This document shows, piece by piece, positions 3,422 through 61,688 of a DNA stretch of 64,000 nucleotides. The notes beneath the pieces were generated by a model that was given only the letters and a program-made list of their open reading frames with translations, was not told the origin of the DNA and made no database searches. The DNA is from a virus: IMG/VR virus record IMGVR_UViG_3300046471_000128, positions 1-64,000 of that record. One strand, 5' to 3'. Position numbers and translations under genes: made by a program. Numbering within the stretch: position 1 is the first letter of the stretch; each line of letters starts with the position of its first letter.

Positions 3422-4087
3422 TCAGGCAGCTTGACGACGTGCCGCTTCGGCGGCGAGCGCGGCTTCACGGCCCGACTGCACCGCGTTCTCAGCACCCTGT
3501 GCGGCTTGGATCCGAAGCTGGCCCTCACGCTCGCGACGGCGATCGACGCTGATCTGCACGATCATGTCCTTGCGCTGCATGTAGGCTTCACGCGCGTCGT
3601 TCGCGATGTCGTAGAGCGCACGCGCCTCGATCACCTGCGTGTGGGCCTTGATGTAGCGCGGATCGCTCTTGACCGCGTTCTCCACCACCTTCTCGGTGAC
3701 CTTCGTGCCGTCCTCGAGGAATTTCTTGCGCCAGGCCGAGTCCAGCTGCGATTCGGTCACCTCGGCGGCGAGCTTGCTCTTGTCCCACTGCCGGCGAGCC
3801 TGCGCGGCTTGCTGGGCGTAGTGCACGAACATCGGCGCCTGGCTGATCACCGCGTCGTCCAGGTCGTTCGGGTTGACGGCCAGATCCTTCTTCAGCTGCG
3901 CCACATCGACGAACACCTTCAGGCCCGAGGCGGTGGGCTCTGGCGCTTTGGCGGCGGGCGCCGCGTTCGCCGTGTTGGTCGCGACGACGGCGGTTGCCGG
4001 TGTCTCGATCCGATGCGCGACCGTCGGCGTGTTCAGGTCACCGACCAGTGCGGCCATTTCTTCGACGGAGAGGGTATCGTTGCTCAT
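3422..4087 (-). CDS. conserved-looking replication-region protein, unknown
   Basis: 221 aa from ATG 4087, chosen because it has AAGGAACACTC upstream; a longer frame upstream has no ribosome-binding site. Residues 1-80 are Ala/Thr-rich and probably disordered. Residues ~80-221 are mostly helical and charged, ending in Glu/Ala/Arg-rich sequence compatible with a coiled coil. No catalytic motif is seen. It lies between polymerase and ssDNA-binding-like gene, so a replication accessory role is possible but not shown. Confidence 0.7.
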   Translation of the reverse strand: MSNDTLSVEEMAALVGDLNTPTVAHRIETPATAVVATNTANAAPAAKAPEPTASGLKVFVDVAQLKKDLAVNPNDLDDAVISQAPMFVHYAQQAAQARRQWDKSKLAAEVTESQLDSAWRKKFLEDGTKVTEKVVENAVKSDPRYIKAHTQVIEARALYDIANDAREAYMQRKDMIVQISVDRRREREGQLRIQAAQGAENAVQSGREAALAAEAARRQAA

Positions 4088-13397: not shown

Positions 13398-13697
13398 TGC
13401 CTTTCTCCTTAGCTGCAACGCTCCTCTCATCCCAAGCTTCCCATCCTGCGACCTTTCGAGCTCGCCAGTATCAAAGCTTTTATGCTCCCAGCAGTGCTTG
13501 GTTGGCAGCTCCTTCTGCTACGTCTCTTCTGAGCTTGCTTCCTCCGCTAAAAGCATGCAATGAAGCTTGGGTGCAACGTTGCAGCCTAGCTATCCAAGCT
13601 AGATCGCGCTGTCCTTGACTACAGTCGTTCATTGGTTAAAAGAACGATCCGCTGCTCCCTTTTTTCCTACTTCGCATGCCACGCACTTTCGTTCGTA
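13398..13697. other. non-coding region with scattered AAGCTT-like motifs
   Basis: No convincing gene. Contains AAGCTT at 13434, 13474 and 13563, with related GAGCTT at 13531 and AAGCTA at 13595, in a pyrimidine-rich background of lower GC than the phage genes. It lies between the regulator and the partition locus and could be part of a centromere or incompatibility region; nothing firmer can be said. Confidence 0.35.
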
Positions 13698-13727
13698 GGT
13701 ATGTTGGTATCAAGATACCAACATACC
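13698..13727. repeat. perfect 14-bp inverted repeat upstream of parA (candidate parS/operator)
   Basis: GGTATGTTGGTATC, 2-nt spacer, GATACCAACATACC. A further GATACC follows at 13730, so the unit GGTATC/GATACC occurs several times in about 40 bp. It is 125 bp upstream of the parA start, the usual position for a centromere and autoregulation site bound by a ribbon-helix-helix partition protein. Confidence 0.6.
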
Positions 13728-13853
13728 TTGATACCTTGTGTGGAAACTGAGTTGCACGCCTAGGACGTAGCTCCAAATCCTCATAATTCACTTGAAGTGT
13801 GGGCCGCTACCCTTTAATCTACGCAGCAAACCACACGTTCAATCGAGGCTTCT

Positions 13854-14510
13854 ATGGCCGTAATTATGGTAGGAACAGAGAAGGGAGGCGTCGGCAAATC
13901 TACCTTCACACAAAATTTGGCAGCGATCCGGGCATCACTCAAGCGAACAGTCGCCGTATTCGACCTCGACGGGCAAAACAGCACCGCGAAGTGGGCCGCG
14001 CGCCGTGCTAACGATCCGGCGCTACCGCAGGTCCACGTCGAGCGGTGGGAACCGCGCAAGCCAATCACGAAGCAGGAATTCGCCGAGGTGCTCGATCGTC
14101 TCACCGATCAGTATCAAGACGTTTTCATCGACGTCGGCGGCAAGGACTCGGACGGCTTCCGCTTCGGCTTGGCCGTCGCTGAGAAGGTGCTCGCGCCGCT
14201 GATCCCGTCGCAGATGGACCTCGACACGGTGCCCGATCTACACGCGCTGGTCGGCAGCTACAAGCGCCAGATCGACATTCGCGTGGTGCTCAATCAGGCC
14301 GATCCGCGCAAGCGCTTCACCAAGTCGATGATTAAGCAGTTGGAGCCGTTCGAAGACAAGCTGCCGGTCCTGACGAAGCTGGTCGCGACGCGCGAAACCT
14401 ACAAGTTCGCCAATGCGCAGGGGAGAGCGGTGTCGGAGCTCTCGGGCCGGGATTGGGATAGCGCCGCGGCCAACGAAATGAAAGACCTTTACCTTGGAGT
14501 GTTTTCATGA
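13854..14510 (+). CDS. parA: ParA-type partition ATPase
   Basis: 218 aa. Deviant Walker A KGGVGKST at residue ~10, then AVFDLDGQNSTAKWA and VFIDVGGKDSD as the A' and B motifs. The short length with no N-terminal DNA-binding domain fits type Ib plasmid ParA proteins. Segregates the plasmid prophage at cell division. Start has GAGG upstream; the stop overlaps the start of the RHH partner (ATGA). Confidence 0.9.
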   Translation: MAVIMVGTEKGGVGKSTFTQNLAAIRASLKRTVAVFDLDGQNSTAKWAARRANDPALPQVHVERWEPRKPITKQEFAEVLDRLTDQYQDVFIDVGGKDSDGFRFGLAVAEKVLAPLIPSQMDLDTVPDLHALVGSYKRQIDIRVVLNQADPRKRFTKSMIKQLEPFEDKLPVLTKLVATRETYKFANAQGRAVSELSGRDWDSAAANEMKDLYLGVFS

Positions 14511-14878
14511 ACAAAGACCCGATGAGCGCGCCGAAAAGCAAAGCGTGGCTCGACAGCCTGAACGCAGAGACGGCAGCCATTGACGAGCCGGAAGCTCCAG
14601 CTCAGACGGGCGAGATCAAGGACGAAGCATCTGAGCCGGTGGTCGTTGCAGAGAGGAGGGCGCCGGTTCGCCTGGGCAAAGGCGTTGACCTGCAGGCCAT
14701 CCGCGCGGCGCTGCCGAAGAAAGAGACGCCGGTGCAGCAGCCGGTTCGCATTCCGCCAGCGCTGAAGGAGGATCTGAATCTGCTGTGCTTCGCGCTCGGC
14801 AAGACCAAGAACGATTTCATCGCCGAGGCCGTCGCGAAGGAAGTCGCGCGCGAGAAGAAGCGCCTGGGCATGGACTGA
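14507..14878 (+). CDS. parB-like: ribbon-helix-helix partition partner (ParB-like, type Ib)
   Basis: 123 aa. The N-terminal ~75 residues are charged and flexible. Residues ~80-120 form a ribbon-helix-helix: VRIPPALKEDLNLLCFALG...FIAEAVAKEV. It is translationally coupled to parA. It likely binds the palindrome at 13698-13727 and stimulates ParA ATPase activity. Confidence 0.8.
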   Translation: MNKDPMSAPKSKAWLDSLNAETAAIDEPEAPAQTGEIKDEASEPVVVAERRAPVRLGKGVDLQAIRAALPKKETPVQQPVRIPPALKEDLNLLCFALGKTKNDFIAEAVAKEVAREKKRLGMD

Positions 14879-14916
14879 TCACCCCTTTGCAGACTGCTTT
14901 TTACAGACTTGGCGTA

Positions 14917-15318
14917 TTGGGAGGTTTCCCGGGTTAGCTGAACTGGGAGAAATCCCGGGTAATGGAAGAGTAGGGAGAAGTTGTTCACAGCCTACTCACG
15001 CGTGGTTTGTAGACGTTCGTAAACGTTTGTATACGGCTCAGAGCCTTACCCAGCATGGGTTTGCGGGCAGGTATTGGGAGAGATTCCGGGTTAATTGGGT
15101 GGGCGGCCGGTCGAAGTAGGAGGGCGACCGGTCACGCATTGGGAGAAAAGCCGGTCCAAGTGCTGTTATGCACAGGGCCTGCGACCCGGAAATCCTCCCA
15201 GTAACCCGGAAATCCTCCCATTCGACCGGAATTCCTCCCAGTGACAAAGGAGAAAAGGGGGTGCAAAATCCGATCACTCCCAATAAGCCGCTCCCGCGAA
15301 ACCGGAATTCCTCCCAAT
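14917..15318. repeat. oriV: iteron array: plasmid replication origin
   Basis: About ten copies of a ~20-21-bp iteron, consensus TTGGGAGRNWTYCCGGGTTA. Plus orientation at 14917, 14942, 15074, 15095 (degenerate), 15116 (degenerate) and 15139. Inverted copies at 15183, 15203, 15223 and 15297. Three inverted copies are spaced exactly 20 bp; the last overlaps the Rep ATG, pointing to autorepression. DnaA-box-like TTGTTCACA lies at 14981 and a consensus-matching TTATGCACA at 15166. Confidence 0.9.
15166..15174 (+). promoter_or_regulatory. DnaA box in the origin
   Basis: TTATGCACA, a full match to TTATNCACA, between the two oppositely oriented iteron groups. Confidence 0.7.
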
Positions 15319-16060
15319 GAAGCTCAAGCACGCCACCCCTGGGCTGAGTCTCGTTGATCGGCACGTCTCCATGCACAACGATCTGCTGGTCGCCTCGCAT
15401 GGGCTCAAGACGCTTGCCGAGCAGCGCATCGTCAAGTCGTGCGCGGCGAAGATCGACAGTGTGCGCCTGGACAGTCACAACCGATACAAGGTTCGACTCA
15501 CGGCCAAGGAATACGCCGAGACATTCAACCTCGATCCCACGACCGCCTACGAGCAACTGAAGTCGGGCGTTGAGGGGCTCGCGGAGCGATGGATCACCTG
15601 GACCGAGCCGGTTCAGCGCGGTGCGATCGCATCCCACAAGGATCGGTGGGTGAGCGGGGCGACTTACGTGGACAGGGCAGGGTGGGTGGAGCTGCGCTTC
15701 TCGCCGGAAGCGACGCCGTATCTGATGGTGCTGCGAGGCAATCACACGACCTATCTCTTGCGCCAGGCGTCGGAGCTTCGCTCGATCTACTCGTGGCGGC
15801 TGCTCGAGCTCCTCATGCAGTTCAAAGACACCGGCTGGCGGCAGATGCCGATCAAGGACTTCCTGCACGCGATGGACGCGAAGCCGAGTCATCTGCAGAA
15901 CTTCAAGGACGCCCGCAAACAGATCATCGAGGTTGCCGTGAAGGAGCTGCAGGAGAAAGACGGATGGGACATTACGTGGTCGCCGATTAAGGAAGGCCGC
16001 AAGGTGACGGACATTCGGTTCGAATTCCGGCGGAATCCCCAAGGCACGCTGCCGCTCTGA
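15317..16060 (+). CDS. repA: Rep_3-type replication initiator
   Basis: 247 aa. Two winged-helix domains of iteron-binding initiators are visible: N-terminal HNDLLVASHGLKTLAEQRIVKSCAAKI...RLTAKEYAETFNLDPTTAYEQLKSG and C-terminal LRSIYSWRLLELLMQFKDTGWRQMPIKDFLHAMD. The linking strand GWVELRFSPEATPYL is typical of this family. Starts plasmid replication at the adjacent iterons. The iteron over its start codon implies self-control of copy number. Confidence 0.9.
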   Translation: MKLKHATPGLSLVDRHVSMHNDLLVASHGLKTLAEQRIVKSCAAKIDSVRLDSHNRYKVRLTAKEYAETFNLDPTTAYEQLKSGVEGLAERWITWTEPVQRGAIASHKDRWVSGATYVDRAGWVELRFSPEATPYLMVLRGNHTTYLLRQASELRSIYSWRLLELLMQFKDTGWRQMPIKDFLHAMDAKPSHLQNFKDARKQIIEVAVKELQEKDGWDITWSPIKEGRKVTDIRFEFRRNPQGTLPL

Positions 16061-24201: not shown

Positions 24202-25587
24202 TTAAACGAATCCGAGCACACGGGTGATGAACTTCATCCGGTCCAGTGCTTGCTCGATCTCGACGGTGAATTCACCGCCTTGGTTACGGGATGCGGCGAA
24301 GTAGAGGCGAGCTCTGCCTGCCGCGCGTTCTTCATCTGTGCGGTTGATCGAGATCACGATGTCGGCGATCCGAATCTTGTTGAAGTCGTCCGCGACGTTC
24401 TCGGCCTTGATGATGTTGAGCGACGCGCCCGAGCGCTGTGCCTGGGTGGCGGAGAGCACCGCGAACCCTTCGGACTGTGCGAGCCCGCGCAGGTCCACGT
24501 AGACCGACTTCGAATTCTCGACCGCCGAATCGGTGTGGCGCTCCGGGCTCATCAGGTCGGCGTAGTCGACGATCACCAGATCGAAAATCATGCCTTGCGT
24601 CTTGTAGCGCTCGATCAGCCGACGCAGCGAGGACGCCTTGAGCGTGCCCGAGGGGAACTCCTCGATGATGAACTTGGCACCCGTGCCATCCGGGCGCTGG
24701 GCCTTCGCGACGAACTCTTTCACCTTCGCGGCGATGTCGTGCGTGTGGTGGTCCATCTCCATCATCGCTTGCTGGGCGACGTTCGCATCCATCCGGTCAG
24801 CGATCACTTCGTGGCCCACTTCGAGGGTCGCGTAGAGCACGTTGTGGCCGGCGGCCCACGCGTTCACACCGAAGCCGATCAGCGCGGTGGTCTTCCCGGC
24901 TTTGGCCGCGCCCAGCAGCACCGAGAGCTCTTTGCGGCCCCAGCCACGGTGATACAGCAGGTTGTCGAGCGGCGCGTAGCCGGTGCTGATGCCCTGCGGC
25001 GGCAGCTTGCCCGAGGCGCGGTCGAGCCGGATGCCCGTGCGCGCGGCGATCATTTCACCGTAGTCGTAGCCGCCGCCCGTTTCGTTCTTGCCCACGTTCA
25101 GCGCTTCGCGCATGACGGACTCGATGCCGTCGAAGTTCTTCTTGTCGAGGTGGTTGATCGCCTTATACATCGCGTCGTGCACCGCCTGGTGCTTGGCGAA
25201 GGTGGCGACCTGATCGACCACGAACTCGCGATCGGAAATGTCGACCTCGAAGAGCTCCTTCAGGCGCCCGATCGACGCCACTGCGAGGGTCTTCGGCAAC
25301 ACCTTGGCGTCAATGTCCTCACGGATCAGAATCGCGTAGATGCCGAGCCCCGAAGGCGCCTTCTTGTATTTTCCGTAGTAGCGCAGCGCCACGCCCACCA
25401 GATACGACTCGAGCTCCGACTCGAAGTAAGCGGTCTGGAGCAGTCCGTCGACCAACTGGTTGAACGTGGTGTCGCGCAGGGTCAGGGCGGCGATGCGGGC
25501 CTGGAACTCGCCGTCGAAGTTGAACTTTTCAACGGCGGGTTCGGTGGCGGCCGGCACGACGCTCAGGGCGGGTGCGGCGGCCGTCAT
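24202..25587 (-). CDS. dnaB-like: DnaB-like replicative helicase
   Basis: 461 aa from ATG 25587. Walker A LGAAKAGKTTALIGF near residue 225, Walker B DLVIVDYADLM, then LSATQAQRSG (switch Gln) and an arginine-finger region, as in RecA-fold DnaB helicases. The N-terminal ~190 residues are helical. Forms the replisome core with the primase and C-family polymerase encoded in this window. A GTG one codon earlier overlaps the upstream stop. Confidence 0.9.
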   Translation of the reverse strand: MTAAAPALSVVPAATEPAVEKFNFDGEFQARIAALTLRDTTFNQLVDGLLQTAYFESELESYLVGVALRYYGKYKKAPSGLGIYAILIREDIDAKVLPKTLAVASIGRLKELFEVDISDREFVVDQVATFAKHQAVHDAMYKAINHLDKKNFDGIESVMREALNVGKNETGGGYDYGEMIAARTGIRLDRASGKLPPQGISTGYAPLDNLLYHRGWGRKELSVLLGAAKAGKTTALIGFGVNAWAAGHNVLYATLEVGHEVIADRMDANVAQQAMMEMDHHTHDIAAKVKEFVAKAQRPDGTGAKFIIEEFPSGTLKASSLRRLIERYKTQGMIFDLVIVDYADLMSPERHTDSAVENSKSVYVDLRGLAQSEGFAVLSATQAQRSGASLNIIKAENVADDFNKIRIADIVISINRTDEERAAGRARLYFAASRNQGGEFTVEIEQALDRMKFITRVLGFV

Positions 25588-26042
25588 CACTGCACCGTCG
25601 AGGTTGAAAGGCGCTTGAGCTCGGCGAAGCCTTCGTCGTCACGGGTCGTGTCAGTGATGTCGCGACGGACCTGCTCGCCCCAGAACTGCTCGATGGCGCT
25701 CTTGTAGAACACCCGCAGGATGGTTCCTTCGCGCGTCGGGTCCGGGTGCTTCGTCTTGAGCGTGATCGTGAACTTGTCGCGGCCGGTGATGACGCCTTCG
25801 AACACGTCGCCACCGCCCGAGGTGATGATCGTCACGCGCTGACCGTTCTGCTGCATCGCCTTGAGAATCACGTCATGCCCGCCCGTGTTCGGGCGCTGCG
25901 GCGTCACGGTGCGGTTCGTCGTATAGGAGCGCTCTTGCGGGCGCACGGCGGTTGACGGGCGGTCGCTGTATTCCTGGCTGGTGCGCAGGGTGCGGCGACC
26001 AAAGGCGAGTTGTTCTTGGCGGGCTTGTTCGGGGGTAGTCAC
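25587..26042 (-). CDS. Hfq/Sm-like protein with disordered N-terminus
   Basis: 151 aa, GTG start at 26042 behind CCGGAGATTTACCT. Residues ~1-55 are Arg/Thr/Gln/Pro-rich. Residues ~56-120 match the Sm1/Sm2 layout of Hfq: LKAMQQNGQRVTIITSGGGDVFEGVITGRDKF, then ITLK and VFYKSAIEQFWGEQ, equivalent to the YKHAIS motif. An insertion (KTKHPDPTREGT) separates the motifs. It precedes dnaB and overlaps it by 1 nt. Phage-borne Hfq-like proteins are uncommon; RNA binding is inferred. Confidence 0.65.
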   Translation of the reverse strand: MTTPEQARQEQLAFGRRTLRTSQEYSDRPSTAVRPQERSYTTNRTVTPQRPNTGGHDVILKAMQQNGQRVTIITSGGGDVFEGVITGRDKFTITLKTKHPDPTREGTILRVFYKSAIEQFWGEQVRRDITDTTRDDEGFAELKRLSTSTVQ

Positions 26043-26113: not shown

Positions 26114-26803
26114 TTAACGAATCACGAAACGCTTTGCCTGAGCAACGACCGCCGGGCCGAACGCCTCAGTGGCGATTGCGTCATCCAGGACATCCTCTTG
26201 CAGCAGGCGGGCGAGCAGCATCGCGCGGTTGCCACCACGGGTCTTGACCTGCTCGATCTGCCAGCGGCGATAGGCAATCTGGTCGGGGTGTTTCTGGTCG
26301 TTTTGGATCCGGAACCGGTCATGCTTCGCCAGCTGGGTGACGCTCTTGCACTGGTTGAGCCAGGCATCGCGCACGTCGAGCACGATCTCTTCTGCGTAAA
26401 GTTGGTTCGGACGCGGGAACACGCCCCAGCCGCGCTCACAGAATCGCTTCATGATGAAGTCCAGCGCGAACTCGTAGCGGCACCCGATCGCATCGAACGC
26501 TTGCCGGGCCCGCCACATCGCGGTCAGCTCTCGGGAGTCGAATAACCGCTCGACGTCAAAGCCTTTCGTCTTGTCGAGCGTGCGGGTGTCTTTCTGGCGA
26601 GCGTATTCGCGGTGCAGCGACAGCCGGTATTCATCAGCGAACAGGTAGGTGGCTTGCACCGGATGCAGATGCCTCGTGTCGAACCACTTGCGGGTAAAAA
26701 GCAGCGACTCGGCTACCCGCAGCGTAGGCGTGACGCGGGAGAGCGCCAGCATCTCGCAGTCCGCGACCGTCAGTTCACTGCCGTAAAAGGTGGGTTGGAT
26801 CAC
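26114..26803 (-). CDS. hypothetical protein, replication block
   Basis: 229 aa. Highly charged and aromatic, largely helical, with Arg-rich segments (FDVERLFDSRELTAMWRARQAFD) and a pyrimidine-tract-independent C-terminus. No catalytic signature recognised. Its own promoter element lies upstream at 26852-26868 and an operator lies just after its stop, so it forms a one-gene unit. Confidence 0.7.
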   Translation of the reverse strand: MIQPTFYGSELTVADCEMLALSRVTPTLRVAESLLFTRKWFDTRHLHPVQATYLFADEYRLSLHREYARQKDTRTLDKTKGFDVERLFDSRELTAMWRARQAFDAIGCRYEFALDFIMKRFCERGWGVFPRPNQLYAEEIVLDVRDAWLNQCKSVTQLAKHDRFRIQNDQKHPDQIAYRRWQIEQVKTRGGNRAMLLARLLQEDVLDDAIATEAFGPAVVAQAKRFVIR

Positions 26804-26851
26804 TTGGGGCTTTCCTCACATTCCCTAATTAGAAATAAGCTTACCCTTACC

Positions 26852-26868
26852 ATTATAGTAAGAAGTTA
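26852..26868 (-). promoter_or_regulatory. promoter element of the 229-aa gene
   Basis: Minus strand TTAACTTCTTACTATAATG: same TTACTATAAT core as the other elements, with the distal AAGT half-site absent. Confidence 0.55.
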
Positions 26869-26886
26869 AAAAGGTTTAGATATAGA

Positions 26887-26922
26887 GGGAAGTGGTTCCG
26901 AGCCCCAAGTGTTCCACTTCCC
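26887..26922 (-). terminator. hairpin after phoH, weak terminator
   Basis: GGGAAGTGG and CCACTTCCC pair across an 18-nt loop, then TCTATATC...CTTTTT on the minus strand, 14 nt after the phoH stop. Confidence 0.5.
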
Positions 26923-58754: not shown

Positions 58755-60041
58755 TCAAATGGATACGCCTGCAATCGTTACTTCGCGCACCGGGAACATG
58801 TATTGGATCGGGTAGCCGAGCGCATCGCCCATGTGATCCACGCCCATGCTCTTGTCGACCTCGCGGCCGCCCTCCTCATAAATCGTCTGTTCGAGCGCGC
58901 GGATCACCTCCTTGCACGGCTTGTTGACCTTCAGCTTGATCTTGCCGTCGGCCGCGCGCAGCATGCGGTTCACCGCGTTCACCCGGTCAGCCACTGGCGG
59001 GTGCTTCTTGTGATAGACGATGTGCTTGAAGCCCTTTTCCTTGAAGATGTCCAGGTCCGACTCGCCGCGTGCGTGCTGGCGATAGCCGCCGGCCGGGTCA
59101 GGGAAGATCGTCGTGCGCTTCATGAGCTTCCAGTAGAGGCGCTCGAGCTCGTTGCTGACCTCCTCGGTGTTCGAGGACTTGAGCGACAGCTCGTGCACCA
59201 CCCACACCTCGCCGTTTTCCTGCGGCTGCAAGATGCAGGAGCTCATCGGGTCGATGTTAAAGTCCTGCCCCACCCAGATCGGCAGGGCCGGATTGAACGG
59301 GAAGTCGCCAACGTGCGTCTTCCGGTCGAACGGGTAATAGACCCGGCCGCTCATCGTCTCGAACGAAGCCTCAAATTCCTGCTTGAACGACTTCTCGTCC
59401 ATGTCGGCGCGCGCAGCCTCGATTTCAGAGGCCGGGATGAACGGCGACGTGATGGTCGGGAACTGCCAGCTCTTCCAGCGGCCGAGGATCTGGTTCTTCG
59501 GGTCCTGCCCGAGCGCATACAGGTCGTAGAGGAAGTTGTAGGACTTCGGCGTGCCGATGAAGAGAGCGTGGCCGCCGGTTGACGCGAGCGTCGGGCGCAG
59601 CACCTTCTTCCAGGCTTCCGGGTTGATGTCCTGCACCTCGTCCATGACGAGAAAGTGCACGCCCACGCCGCGCAGCGAGTCAGGGTTGTCCGCGCCCTTC
59701 AGTTCGATCCGGGTGCCGTTGACCAGGATGATCGTGAGGGTCGTCTCGTTGACCTTTCGAATCCAGCGCTTTGGGATCGACGCGAGCAGGTCCGGCCACA
59801 TGATCTGCTTTGCCATCCGGTAAGACGGCGCCACATACCACACGAGGCGCTTGGGCACTTTCGCGTATTTGATGAGCGAGACTTTGGCGAGGACCGTTTT
59901 GCCCCAGCGTCGCCCCGCCACGACCACGCGAAAGCGGTGCGGCGAGCGAAACACCTCCATCTGCTTCGGATGGAGGAAAATCGTCTGCAACTCACTCGCG
60001 ATCGCCGAGATGGTCGGCAGTCCGGGCTCACGCAGGCGCAT
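58755..60041 (-). CDS. terL: terminase large subunit
   Basis: 428 aa from ATG 60041 behind GAGGACG, a 14-nt overlap with terS. ATPase Walker A AGRRWGKT near residue 42 and Walker B HFLVMDEVQD. RNase H-type nuclease aspartates in VGQDFNIDP, FPDPAGG and DHMGDALGYPI. Packages DNA into the procapsid and cuts it. The enzyme type alone does not show whether packaging is cos or pac. Confidence 0.9.
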   Translation of the reverse strand: MRLREPGLPTISAIASELQTIFLHPKQMEVFRSPHRFRVVVAGRRWGKTVLAKVSLIKYAKVPKRLVWYVAPSYRMAKQIMWPDLLASIPKRWIRKVNETTLTIILVNGTRIELKGADNPDSLRGVGVHFLVMDEVQDINPEAWKKVLRPTLASTGGHALFIGTPKSYNFLYDLYALGQDPKNQILGRWKSWQFPTITSPFIPASEIEAARADMDEKSFKQEFEASFETMSGRVYYPFDRKTHVGDFPFNPALPIWVGQDFNIDPMSSCILQPQENGEVWVVHELSLKSSNTEEVSNELERLYWKLMKRTTIFPDPAGGYRQHARGESDLDIFKEKGFKHIVYHKKHPPVADRVNAVNRMLRAADGKIKLKVNKPCKEVIRALEQTIYEEGGREVDKSMGVDHMGDALGYPIQYMFPVREVTIAGVSI

Positions 60042-60696
60042 CGTCGTCCTCGTCGTCGAGGCTGCCCTCACCCGGGCCCGGCAGCGCCGCCATCACCTCC
60101 GCGTCGCCCATGTCGAGGCCGGAGTCTTCCTGACGCTGCTGCATCTCGAGGATCTGGTCCGCGGTCATCTCCTGGATGCCCAGCTCCGGAAGCTCGTCTT
60201 CGTCGTTCTTCTCGCCGTCGGCGATGCCCAGCAGGATGAAGCGCTCCTCGCGCAGCGTGGAGAGCGCCTCGGCCGCGAGCTTGAGCGTCTTGATCTCGTT
60301 CTGGACGGTGGCGAACGGGCGCTTGGTCTGCTGCGCCTCGAGCAACTGCTTCTGGATCAGCCCCGCGATCACCTTCGCCGCGTTGTAATGCGACTCCTTC
60401 GTCTCGCGAATCCGCCCGGCAATCACGCCCGCGTCGCCCGTGAGTTGCTGGTGCACCTGCTGTTGAACCGCGGCATGCACTTGGGCGCGTTTAGAGCCCT
60501 TCTCAGCGCCCGCCTTCGCGAACATGAAGCTCAGCGCGCGCGGGGTGCGGTGGAAGCGCTTGGAGAGGTCGTCAAGCGTCACCTCGCCCGATTCCCAGAG
60601 CGCGATGATCTCCGCCTTCTGCTTCTCGGTGAGCGACTTGCTGCCGACCGTGCGACCCCCGCCTTTCTTCGGGGGCGTCTTCGTCTGTTCCGTCAC
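60028..60696 (-). CDS. terS: terminase small subunit
   Basis: 222 aa starting with GTG at 60696. Helix-turn-helix near residues 15-50 (TEKQKAEIIALWESGEVTLDDLSKRFHRTPRALSFMF) as in DNA-recognition subunits. Long helices and an acidic C-terminus (DDEDDDAPA). A terminator-like hairpin ends about 15 nt before the GTG. Confidence 0.8.
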   Translation of the reverse strand: MTEQTKTPPKKGGGRTVGSKSLTEKQKAEIIALWESGEVTLDDLSKRFHRTPRALSFMFAKAGAEKGSKRAQVHAAVQQQVHQQLTGDAGVIAGRIRETKESHYNAAKVIAGLIQKQLLEAQQTKRPFATVQNEIKTLKLAAEALSTLREERFILLGIADGEKNDEDELPELGIQEMTADQILEMQQRQEDSGLDMGDAEVMAALPGPGEGSLDDEDDDAPA

Positions 60697-60710: not shown

Positions 60711-60743
60711 AAAAAAAATGGGGCAGCCGTGTCGGTCTGCCCC
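60711..60743 (-). terminator. terminator-like hairpin in the terS leader
   Basis: Minus strand GGGGCAG-accgacacgg-CTGCCCC then ATTTTTTTT. It precedes the terS start by 15 nt, so terS either depends on read-through or uses a promoter overlapping the hairpin. Confidence 0.7.
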
Positions 60744-60793
60744 TTGGAGGTGTTGCTTGAGGAGCAAACTATAACCCGGCCGCAGCCTTGTGT

Positions 60794-60813
60794 AAATAAC
60801 CCATAACTTATTT
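60794..60813 (-). promoter_or_regulatory. operator upstream of terS
   Basis: Minus strand AAATAAGTTATGGGTTATTT: AAGT-N8-ATTT, related to the main class. Confidence 0.45.
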
Positions 60814-60902
60814 TGTGGGCCAGTCTTTCCCACCCGCGTCCTGCTACTCATGCTTCATCGTCCTTTTCCCGAGCCGGGGTCTACCTGACAGAAACCTTAC
60901 TT

Positions 60903-61004
60903 ACTTATCACTTTTTGGGGGTTCCCATAGTTTTTAAAATGTAATTAGTAGTTGTTTTTAAAAAAGGGGATATATATAGAGGGAACCCCCAAAAAGTGAT
61001 AAGT
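60903..61004. repeat. perfect 24-bp inverted repeat with AT-rich loop upstream of the terminase genes
   Basis: Left arm 60903-60926 begins ACTTATCAC and ends GGGGGTTCCC; right arm 60981-61004 begins GGGAACCCCC and ends GTGATAAGT. The 54-nt loop is very AT-rich. Each outer end carries an operator half-site (ACTTATC/GATAAGT). Not followed by a U-tract, so it is not a simple terminator. Confidence 0.85.
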
Positions 61005-61032: not shown

Positions 61033-61470
61033 TTAATCAAAAACGATCTCTTCGAGAGAAATCTCCGGCTCGGGAAAAGAAAGCTCCGGGAGAGAAACCA
61101 GCTGCGGCTCGGGTAAGTTATGGCTTAGTTCCTGAGCCTCGACTTCCACAGTGACCTGCGGCTCGGGAAGAATTTCGGCCGAACCCACCGCGGCTCCCGG
61201 ACCCGGTGCCGGCCGACCGGTGCCGCCGACCACGGCCCGTCCGAGATCCGTCGGCCGAACCAGACGTCGCAGGCGGCCGCGCCGGTGCTCGGCGAAGCTG
61301 CGGTCGATCAGACCGTGCCGCTCGATCGCGCGCAGGCTGAACTGCAGGCTCTCCTTGGTCGTCTTGTAGGTGAGGCGCTCAAGAAGCTGGTCGAGGTCAA
61401 CCGCGGCGCCCTCAGAGGCCCCGGCGACGACCACCTTCATGATCTCGATCTGCTTGATGGTCAGATTCAT
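61033..61470 (-). CDS. winged-helix-like DNA-binding protein, unknown target
   Basis: 145 aa from ATG 61470, which overlaps the upstream stop (ATGA). Residues ~1-75 fit a MarR-like wHTH (LTIKQIEIMKVVVAGASEG...LQFSLRAIERHGLI...LRRLVRPTDLG). The rest is a Pro/Glu-rich tail (LPEPQVTVEVEAQEL...LPELSFPEPEISLEEI). Could be a late-gene regulator acting on the control region just downstream. Confidence 0.62.
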   Translation of the reverse strand: MNLTIKQIEIMKVVVAGASEGAAVDLDQLLERLTYKTTKESLQFSLRAIERHGLIDRSFAEHRRGRLRRLVRPTDLGRAVVGGTGRPAPGPGAAVGSAEILPEPQVTVEVEAQELSHNLPEPQLVSLPELSFPEPEISLEEIVFD

Positions 61471-61688
61471 CGCGGCCGGCAGCACCAGAAGTGATCGCCC
61501 TGCTCCGAGTGCGCGAGCGCCCGGCTGACCGTCGCGTATTCGTCCGCGCTGGGCGTGCGCACCCAGATCACGAAGTCATAGGCGCGGCCGCGGGCCTGGT
61601 CGGCCTCGTCGATCGATTCCATCGTCCAGGGCGAGAGGGCGCCCTTCGTGCCCACGATAGCGAGCGTCTTGGCGGTCGTCTTGATCAT
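61467..61688 (-). CDS. small alpha/beta protein, unknown
   Basis: 73 aa, overlapping neighbours by 4 nt on both sides. KTLAIVGTKGALSPWTMES...YDFVIWVRTPSADEYATVSRALAHSEQGDHFW suggests a small Rossmann-like strand-helix-strand. No family assigned. Confidence 0.6.
   Translation of the reverse strand: MIKTTAKTLAIVGTKGALSPWTMESIDEADQARGRAYDFVIWVRTPSADEYATVSRALAHSEQGDHFWCCRPR

Follow-up and report, generated by a model that had tools for sequence, protein, structure and literature searches.

Sequence comparison places the long palindrome in front of the small terminase subunit gene terS (site 1) in a family of long, AT-rich dyads, which are present in two to three copies per genome and lie between gene modules in phages and phage-plasmids of the SSU5 supergroup. 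The dyads are probably protein-bound DNA sites, such as lytic replication origins or operators, rather than packaging cut sites. Site 1 (60903–61004, minus strand) was studied in a window comprising the first 64 kb of a virus record of 107,509 bp.

The ends of the record overlap by 127 bp, giving a circle of 107,382 bp. The terminase and its neighbours match those of SSU5, pHCM2-type plasmids, Pseudomonas nickie-type phages and Rhizobium phages; SSU5-like elements form a large group of phage-plasmids, some with antibiotic-resistance genes (PMC9600943). The genome itself looks like a phage-plasmid of the SSU5 supergroup, with plasmid replication and partition loci away from the dyads. This assignment follows from the presence of a RepA-like gene accompanied by iteron-like repeats and of a ParA gene preceded by a palindrome. 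The maintenance block (13697–16060) consists of a parS-like palindrome with 15-bp arms (13697–13728), the parA gene (13854–14510, plus strand), an Arc-like gene, iteron-like repeats (14914–15320) representing the presumed plasmid origin and, just downstream of them, the RepA-like gene (15317–16060, plus strand). A role of the dyads as plasmid oriV or parS was rejected, the iterons and the parA palindrome both mapping elsewhere. The sop centromere of phage-plasmid N15 consists of several inverted repeats dispersed across the genome, and the dyads offer an analogy to this arrangement; unlike the sop repeats, they occur also in Rhizobium phages, and the genome studied here has a palindrome of its own next to parA.

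The arms of site 1, ACTTATCACTTTTTGGGGGTTCCC (60903–60926) and GGGAACCCCCAAAAAGTGATAAGT (60981–61004), are complementary at 24 of 24 positions and enclose a 54-nt centre that is 81% AT. A sequence-only reading of the window had described this perfect inverted repeat correctly, along with its GATAAGT half-sites, which are found as ACTTATC/GATAAGT at the start or end of each arm, and the runs of A/T and G/C, present within each arm as TTTTTGGGGG. Read in the sense of terS, the outer box is ACTTATC and the inner box is TTCCCTCTATATATA. Site 1 is the longest perfect inverted repeat of the whole record, the runner-up being 15 bp long. When the 336-nt leader containing the site was dinucleotide-shuffled 2000 times, no arm longer than 13 bp arose, and the predicted single-stranded DNA fold has a z-score of −7.6. 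An ordinary terminator had rightly been dismissed, given the 24-bp arms, the 54-nt loop and the missing U-tract: no T-run follows either arm on either strand. Intrinsic termination at site 1 was also rejected for want of a GC stem of ordinary length and of any match in a scan for terminator-like structures. The dyad is bracketed by a separate 15-bp perfect inverted repeat (CTTTTCCCGAGCCGG, 60863–60877 and 61065–61079), one arm of which falls within the phrog_900 gene, in its LPEP-repeat 3′ end.

Annotation of the terminase genes bears out the proposed location of the repeat between these genes and the upstream operon. The large subunit (58755–60071, minus strand) was assigned by annotation and homologues, and the small, DNA-binding subunit (phrog_867; 60028–60696, minus strand) by position. 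On the minus strand, the leader runs from the phrog_900 gene (61033–61485) through 28 nt to the dyad and then, after about 107 nt, to a promoter, a hairpin with a T8 run and terS. Site 1 thus lies 28 nt past the phrog_900 stop codon and about 207 nt before terS. The sigma-70-like promoter, TTTACA-N17-TATAGT (60768–60796, minus strand), is kept in close relatives, and so is the terminator-like hairpin just before terS, GGGGCAG..CTGCCCC followed by ATTTTTTTT (60711–60743, minus strand), which was judged by eye and is beyond the loop limit of the terminator scan. The late operon may be attenuated through this promoter and hairpin independently of the dyad, and the stretch 60711–60796 is possibly an attenuated late promoter controlled by antitermination. 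A sigma-70 promoter inside the dyad was considered and rejected as not general: the TTG..TATATA spacing, determined by eye, is 18–19 bp in the query clade versus 14–15 bp elsewhere.

The sequence-only reading had proposed looking for the repeat upstream of terS in relatives, and it is found there. In close relatives the dyad occupies the matching position with a span of about 102–106 nt. A dyad significant at p ≤ 0.01 was detected between the phrog_900 gene and terS in 34 of 68 related loci, a set that includes related sequences, so the loci are not independent. In an alignment of nine sequences, 12 of the 24 arm pairs are invariant and 9 have changed on both sides, as in ACTTATC/GATAAGT of this genome versus ACTTGTC/GACAAGT elsewhere. 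The shuffled mean of such two-sided changes is 4.1, and none of 500 shuffles reached 9. The exact arm of site 1 had no match in viral contigs, and a search of this genome allowing 3 mismatches returned no copy besides site 1 itself. An inserted MITE-like mobile element, as inverted repeats at both ends of an AT-rich stretch could suggest, is highly improbable: the sequence has diverged and covaries at a fixed position across the supergroup, and no further copy of site 1 turned up in this genome at up to 3 mismatches. Likewise, dyads that hold fixed syntenic positions and have covarying arms contradict a MITE or transposon.

Site 2 (26796–26916, minus strand) is weaker and less symmetric, with arms at 26801–26811 and 26901–26911 (CACTTGGGGCT/AGCCCCAAGTG). 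Sites 1 and 2 have ACTT..TTCCCTCTATAT in common; the copies share the inner box, and the outer box only loosely. Each of three close relatives (G005, G006 and G007) has two same-strand occurrences of the motif ACTTG...TTCCCTC(T)TATATNTA; the genome studied here has the pair as well, but with ACTTATC at site 1. The two same-strand copies are 30–34 kb apart in all four genomes. The SSU5-type palindrome, searched for as a pattern, appeared first twice per contig and then three times per genome: PhiR41_1 has three, at 13.4, 45.6 and 75.1 kb, pHCM2 has three, and Cyrano has two, which together with one spanning its record ends make three. A blastn search with a 70-nt SSU5-type query gave matches at 3483 places, spread over 738 plasmid records, with the palindrome hit on both strands; among the matches listed, there were mostly 3–6 per plasmid record (both strands counted) and none lay beneath an annotated gene. 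Enterobacteriaceae SSU5-like plasmids typically carry three copies. A related second site is present in two Rhizobium phage lineages, sometimes as one half only, and site 2 is likewise reduced to one half in some relatives (L252–L254; RHX66). The centre is 70–80% AT in most dyads.

Two further observations were made in these genomes. The record IMGVR_UViG_3300046694_000296 (215,656 bp; loci L006 and L011) holds two different phages of the group, about 107 kb each and apparently joined, and appears to be a chimeric assembly or a cointegrate. Dispersed AAACAA(A/G)TTGTTT palindromes, possibly repressor operators, are located at about +92.6 and +93.1 kb from terS in PhiR41_1 and Cyrano, and the same motif is present in the SSU5 terS leader.

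The copies are intergenic and lie about 10–40 nt past a stop codon. Site 2 separates a phoH-like gene from the phrog_2500–helicase–primase module, and its right arm runs into the GTG start of the phrog_2500 gene (26114–26803, minus strand). Downstream in this genome follow phrog_2500, a DnaB-like replicative helicase (24202–25590, minus strand), a primase and a ligase; in Cyrano and SSU5, site 2 precedes the equivalent phrog_2500, DnaB and primase genes. In RHEph10, the site is shifted upstream by one short operon and is found directly ahead of the block's phoH gene. Site 3 of Cyrano comes after a methyltransferase gene. The protein encoded between phrog_2500 and the helicase (25587–26042) gave a sub-threshold Hfq-like match (E = 2.2e-4). 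The phrog_900 gene, conserved beside site 1 and always upstream of it, encodes an N-terminal winged helix-turn-helix domain predicted with confidence (pLDDT above 90 for residues 1–80; MarR/PadR/AF1382 folds), and its product is a candidate dyad-binding protein. The AlphaFold model of phrog_2500 was poor (pLDDT 67) and Foldseek gave no fold match for it. Judged by position only, phrog_2500 (at site 2) and phrog_900 (at site 1) are the candidates for an initiator, and an origin-binding role of phrog_2500 is a guess.

The location of site 1 had led the earlier reading to suggest a cos or pac site or a replication origin. The cos part of this suggestion is weakened by the presence of two to three copies per genome, one of them heading the replication module; the origin part is, tentatively, the leading explanation. 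In lambda-type phages, cosN/cosB is partly symmetric DNA upstream of terS, to which site 1 is analogous in placement, but the dyads are multi-copy and their symmetry is much longer. A packaging site recognised by the terminase, of cos or pac type, is accordingly regarded as improbable. It would account for the position upstream of terS and for the SSU5 record, which begins and ends inside the terS-proximal palindrome, with the Cyrano start one base away; however, an assembly break may explain the ends in SSU5, whose record may in turn have guided the start in Cyrano. A published TerL tree also speaks for cos, as it groups Nickievirus psageB1 with 3′ cos phages (PMC8537276). Against it, PhageTerm called Nickievirus Nican01 as ‘DTR (long)’ (PMC11256456), and T5-like phages are among the distant TerL homologues, at about 27% identity. 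A cos site is expected once per genome length and a repeated one would fragment the genome; cos was downgraded because the palindrome is multi-copy.

If the symmetry were selected as a transcript hairpin, G·U pairs should outnumber A·C mismatches. The first mismatch count across the dyads gave 63 GT, 59 AC and 204 others. In a stricter count the numbers were 18, 8 and 34, the GT excess being confined to related enterobacterial copies, with 4 versus 4 elsewhere. The mismatches reveal no general tolerance of G·U, which tends to favour symmetry at the level of DNA rather than RNA. An RNA element, that is, a 3′-UTR or intercistronic hairpin serving as an RNase III site, mRNA stabiliser or unusual terminator, appears unlikely. 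The dyads do follow stop codons closely when read with transcription, their predicted fold is strong and G·U exceeds A·C in the enterobacterial copies; nevertheless, the excess is not general, a U-tract is absent and the arm of site 2 runs into the next start codon. No Rfam family reached its gathering threshold with the dyad, and the sub-threshold matches were to microRNA hairpins only.

Among DNA-level functions, an operator or module boundary is possible, at a likelihood we consider rather low. Under this explanation, a DNA-binding protein of the phage, such as the phrog_900 product, would bind the half-sites ahead of the late and replication operons and switch or insulate transcription of these operons. 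Every copy lies between transcription units, a conserved winged helix-turn-helix protein is encoded beside site 1, and a promoter is located downstream of it. The sites of one genome have half-sites in common that differ from lineage to lineage, a pattern to be expected of half-sites that follow a trans-acting factor. On the other hand, arms of 24–80 bp and spans of 100–200 bp are larger than those of ordinary operators, and the arms covary outside the conserved boxes too. The enterobacterial spacing or span varies over 51–57 bp in 1-bp steps, which fits poorly with a single rigid dimer; the site 1 promoter is about 107 bp from the dyad, and phrog_900 is found also in relatives with no detectable dyad.

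The best reading, which we hold tentatively and at less than even confidence, is that the dyads are lytic-cycle replication origins. A phage DNA-binding protein would bind the half-sites, the AT-rich centre would open or be remodelled at the bound dyad, and lytic replication would start both at the copy heading the helicase–primase module and at the copy near terS, in a two-site manner like that of oriL/oriR of Bacillus phage SPP1. The AT-rich centre, the copy at the helicase–primase module and the SPP1 precedent rank the origin slightly above the operator. As far as architecture goes, the dyads have the features of an origin: an AT-rich centre, flanking repeated or inverted boxes and proximity to replication genes. 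Their presence in Rhizobium phages suggests a lytic-cycle role, if those phages are virulent. Of 10 genomes, 8 showed a GC-skew upswing at site 1, a count confounded by genes shared between them, and the skew does not decide between the readings. Points against the origin are the absence of a clear upswing at sites 2 and 3, the 34 of 68 relatives with no significant site 1 dyad, the halved site 2 of some relatives and the uninformative phrog_2500 model.

In the long oriL palindrome of HSV-1, inverted protein boxes lie on either side of an AT-rich centre. The dyads resemble it in architecture; the virus and its proteins are unrelated, and the likeness is an analogy only. Another parallel is SPP1, which has two separated origins, one of them at a replication operon, both recognised by one protein, G38P; the operon encodes this origin-binding protein together with the helicase loader and helicase (PMC3485210). 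In SPP1, however, oriL is located within gene 38, at 12 kb from the other origin (PMC3485210), whereas the dyads are intergenic, about 30 kb apart and present in two to three copies, and no G38P-like initiator was found among the neighbours examined.

What is new here is that the terS-proximal repeat is not unique: as judged by its sequence, it is one of a small family of DNA dyads evolving in concert, for which we infer a mechanism. The multi-copy finding corrects an understandable but doubtful view, namely that the palindrome next to terS is cos. In the open literature on SSU5 ends, packaging or palindromes, seen mostly in less than full text, no description of the dyad was found, and the literature searched yielded no description of how SSU5-like elements start lytic replication or switch between modules. 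A broader proposal, which we regard as doubtful, is that two to three cruciform-capable dyads with arms evolving in concert would act as shared control points, starting lytic replication at the helicase module and terS and perhaps linking the formation of concatemers with packaging or late transcription. A conserved, multi-copy and easily deleted element that heads the late and replication modules makes the question of lytic replication start and module switching in SSU5-like elements directly testable.
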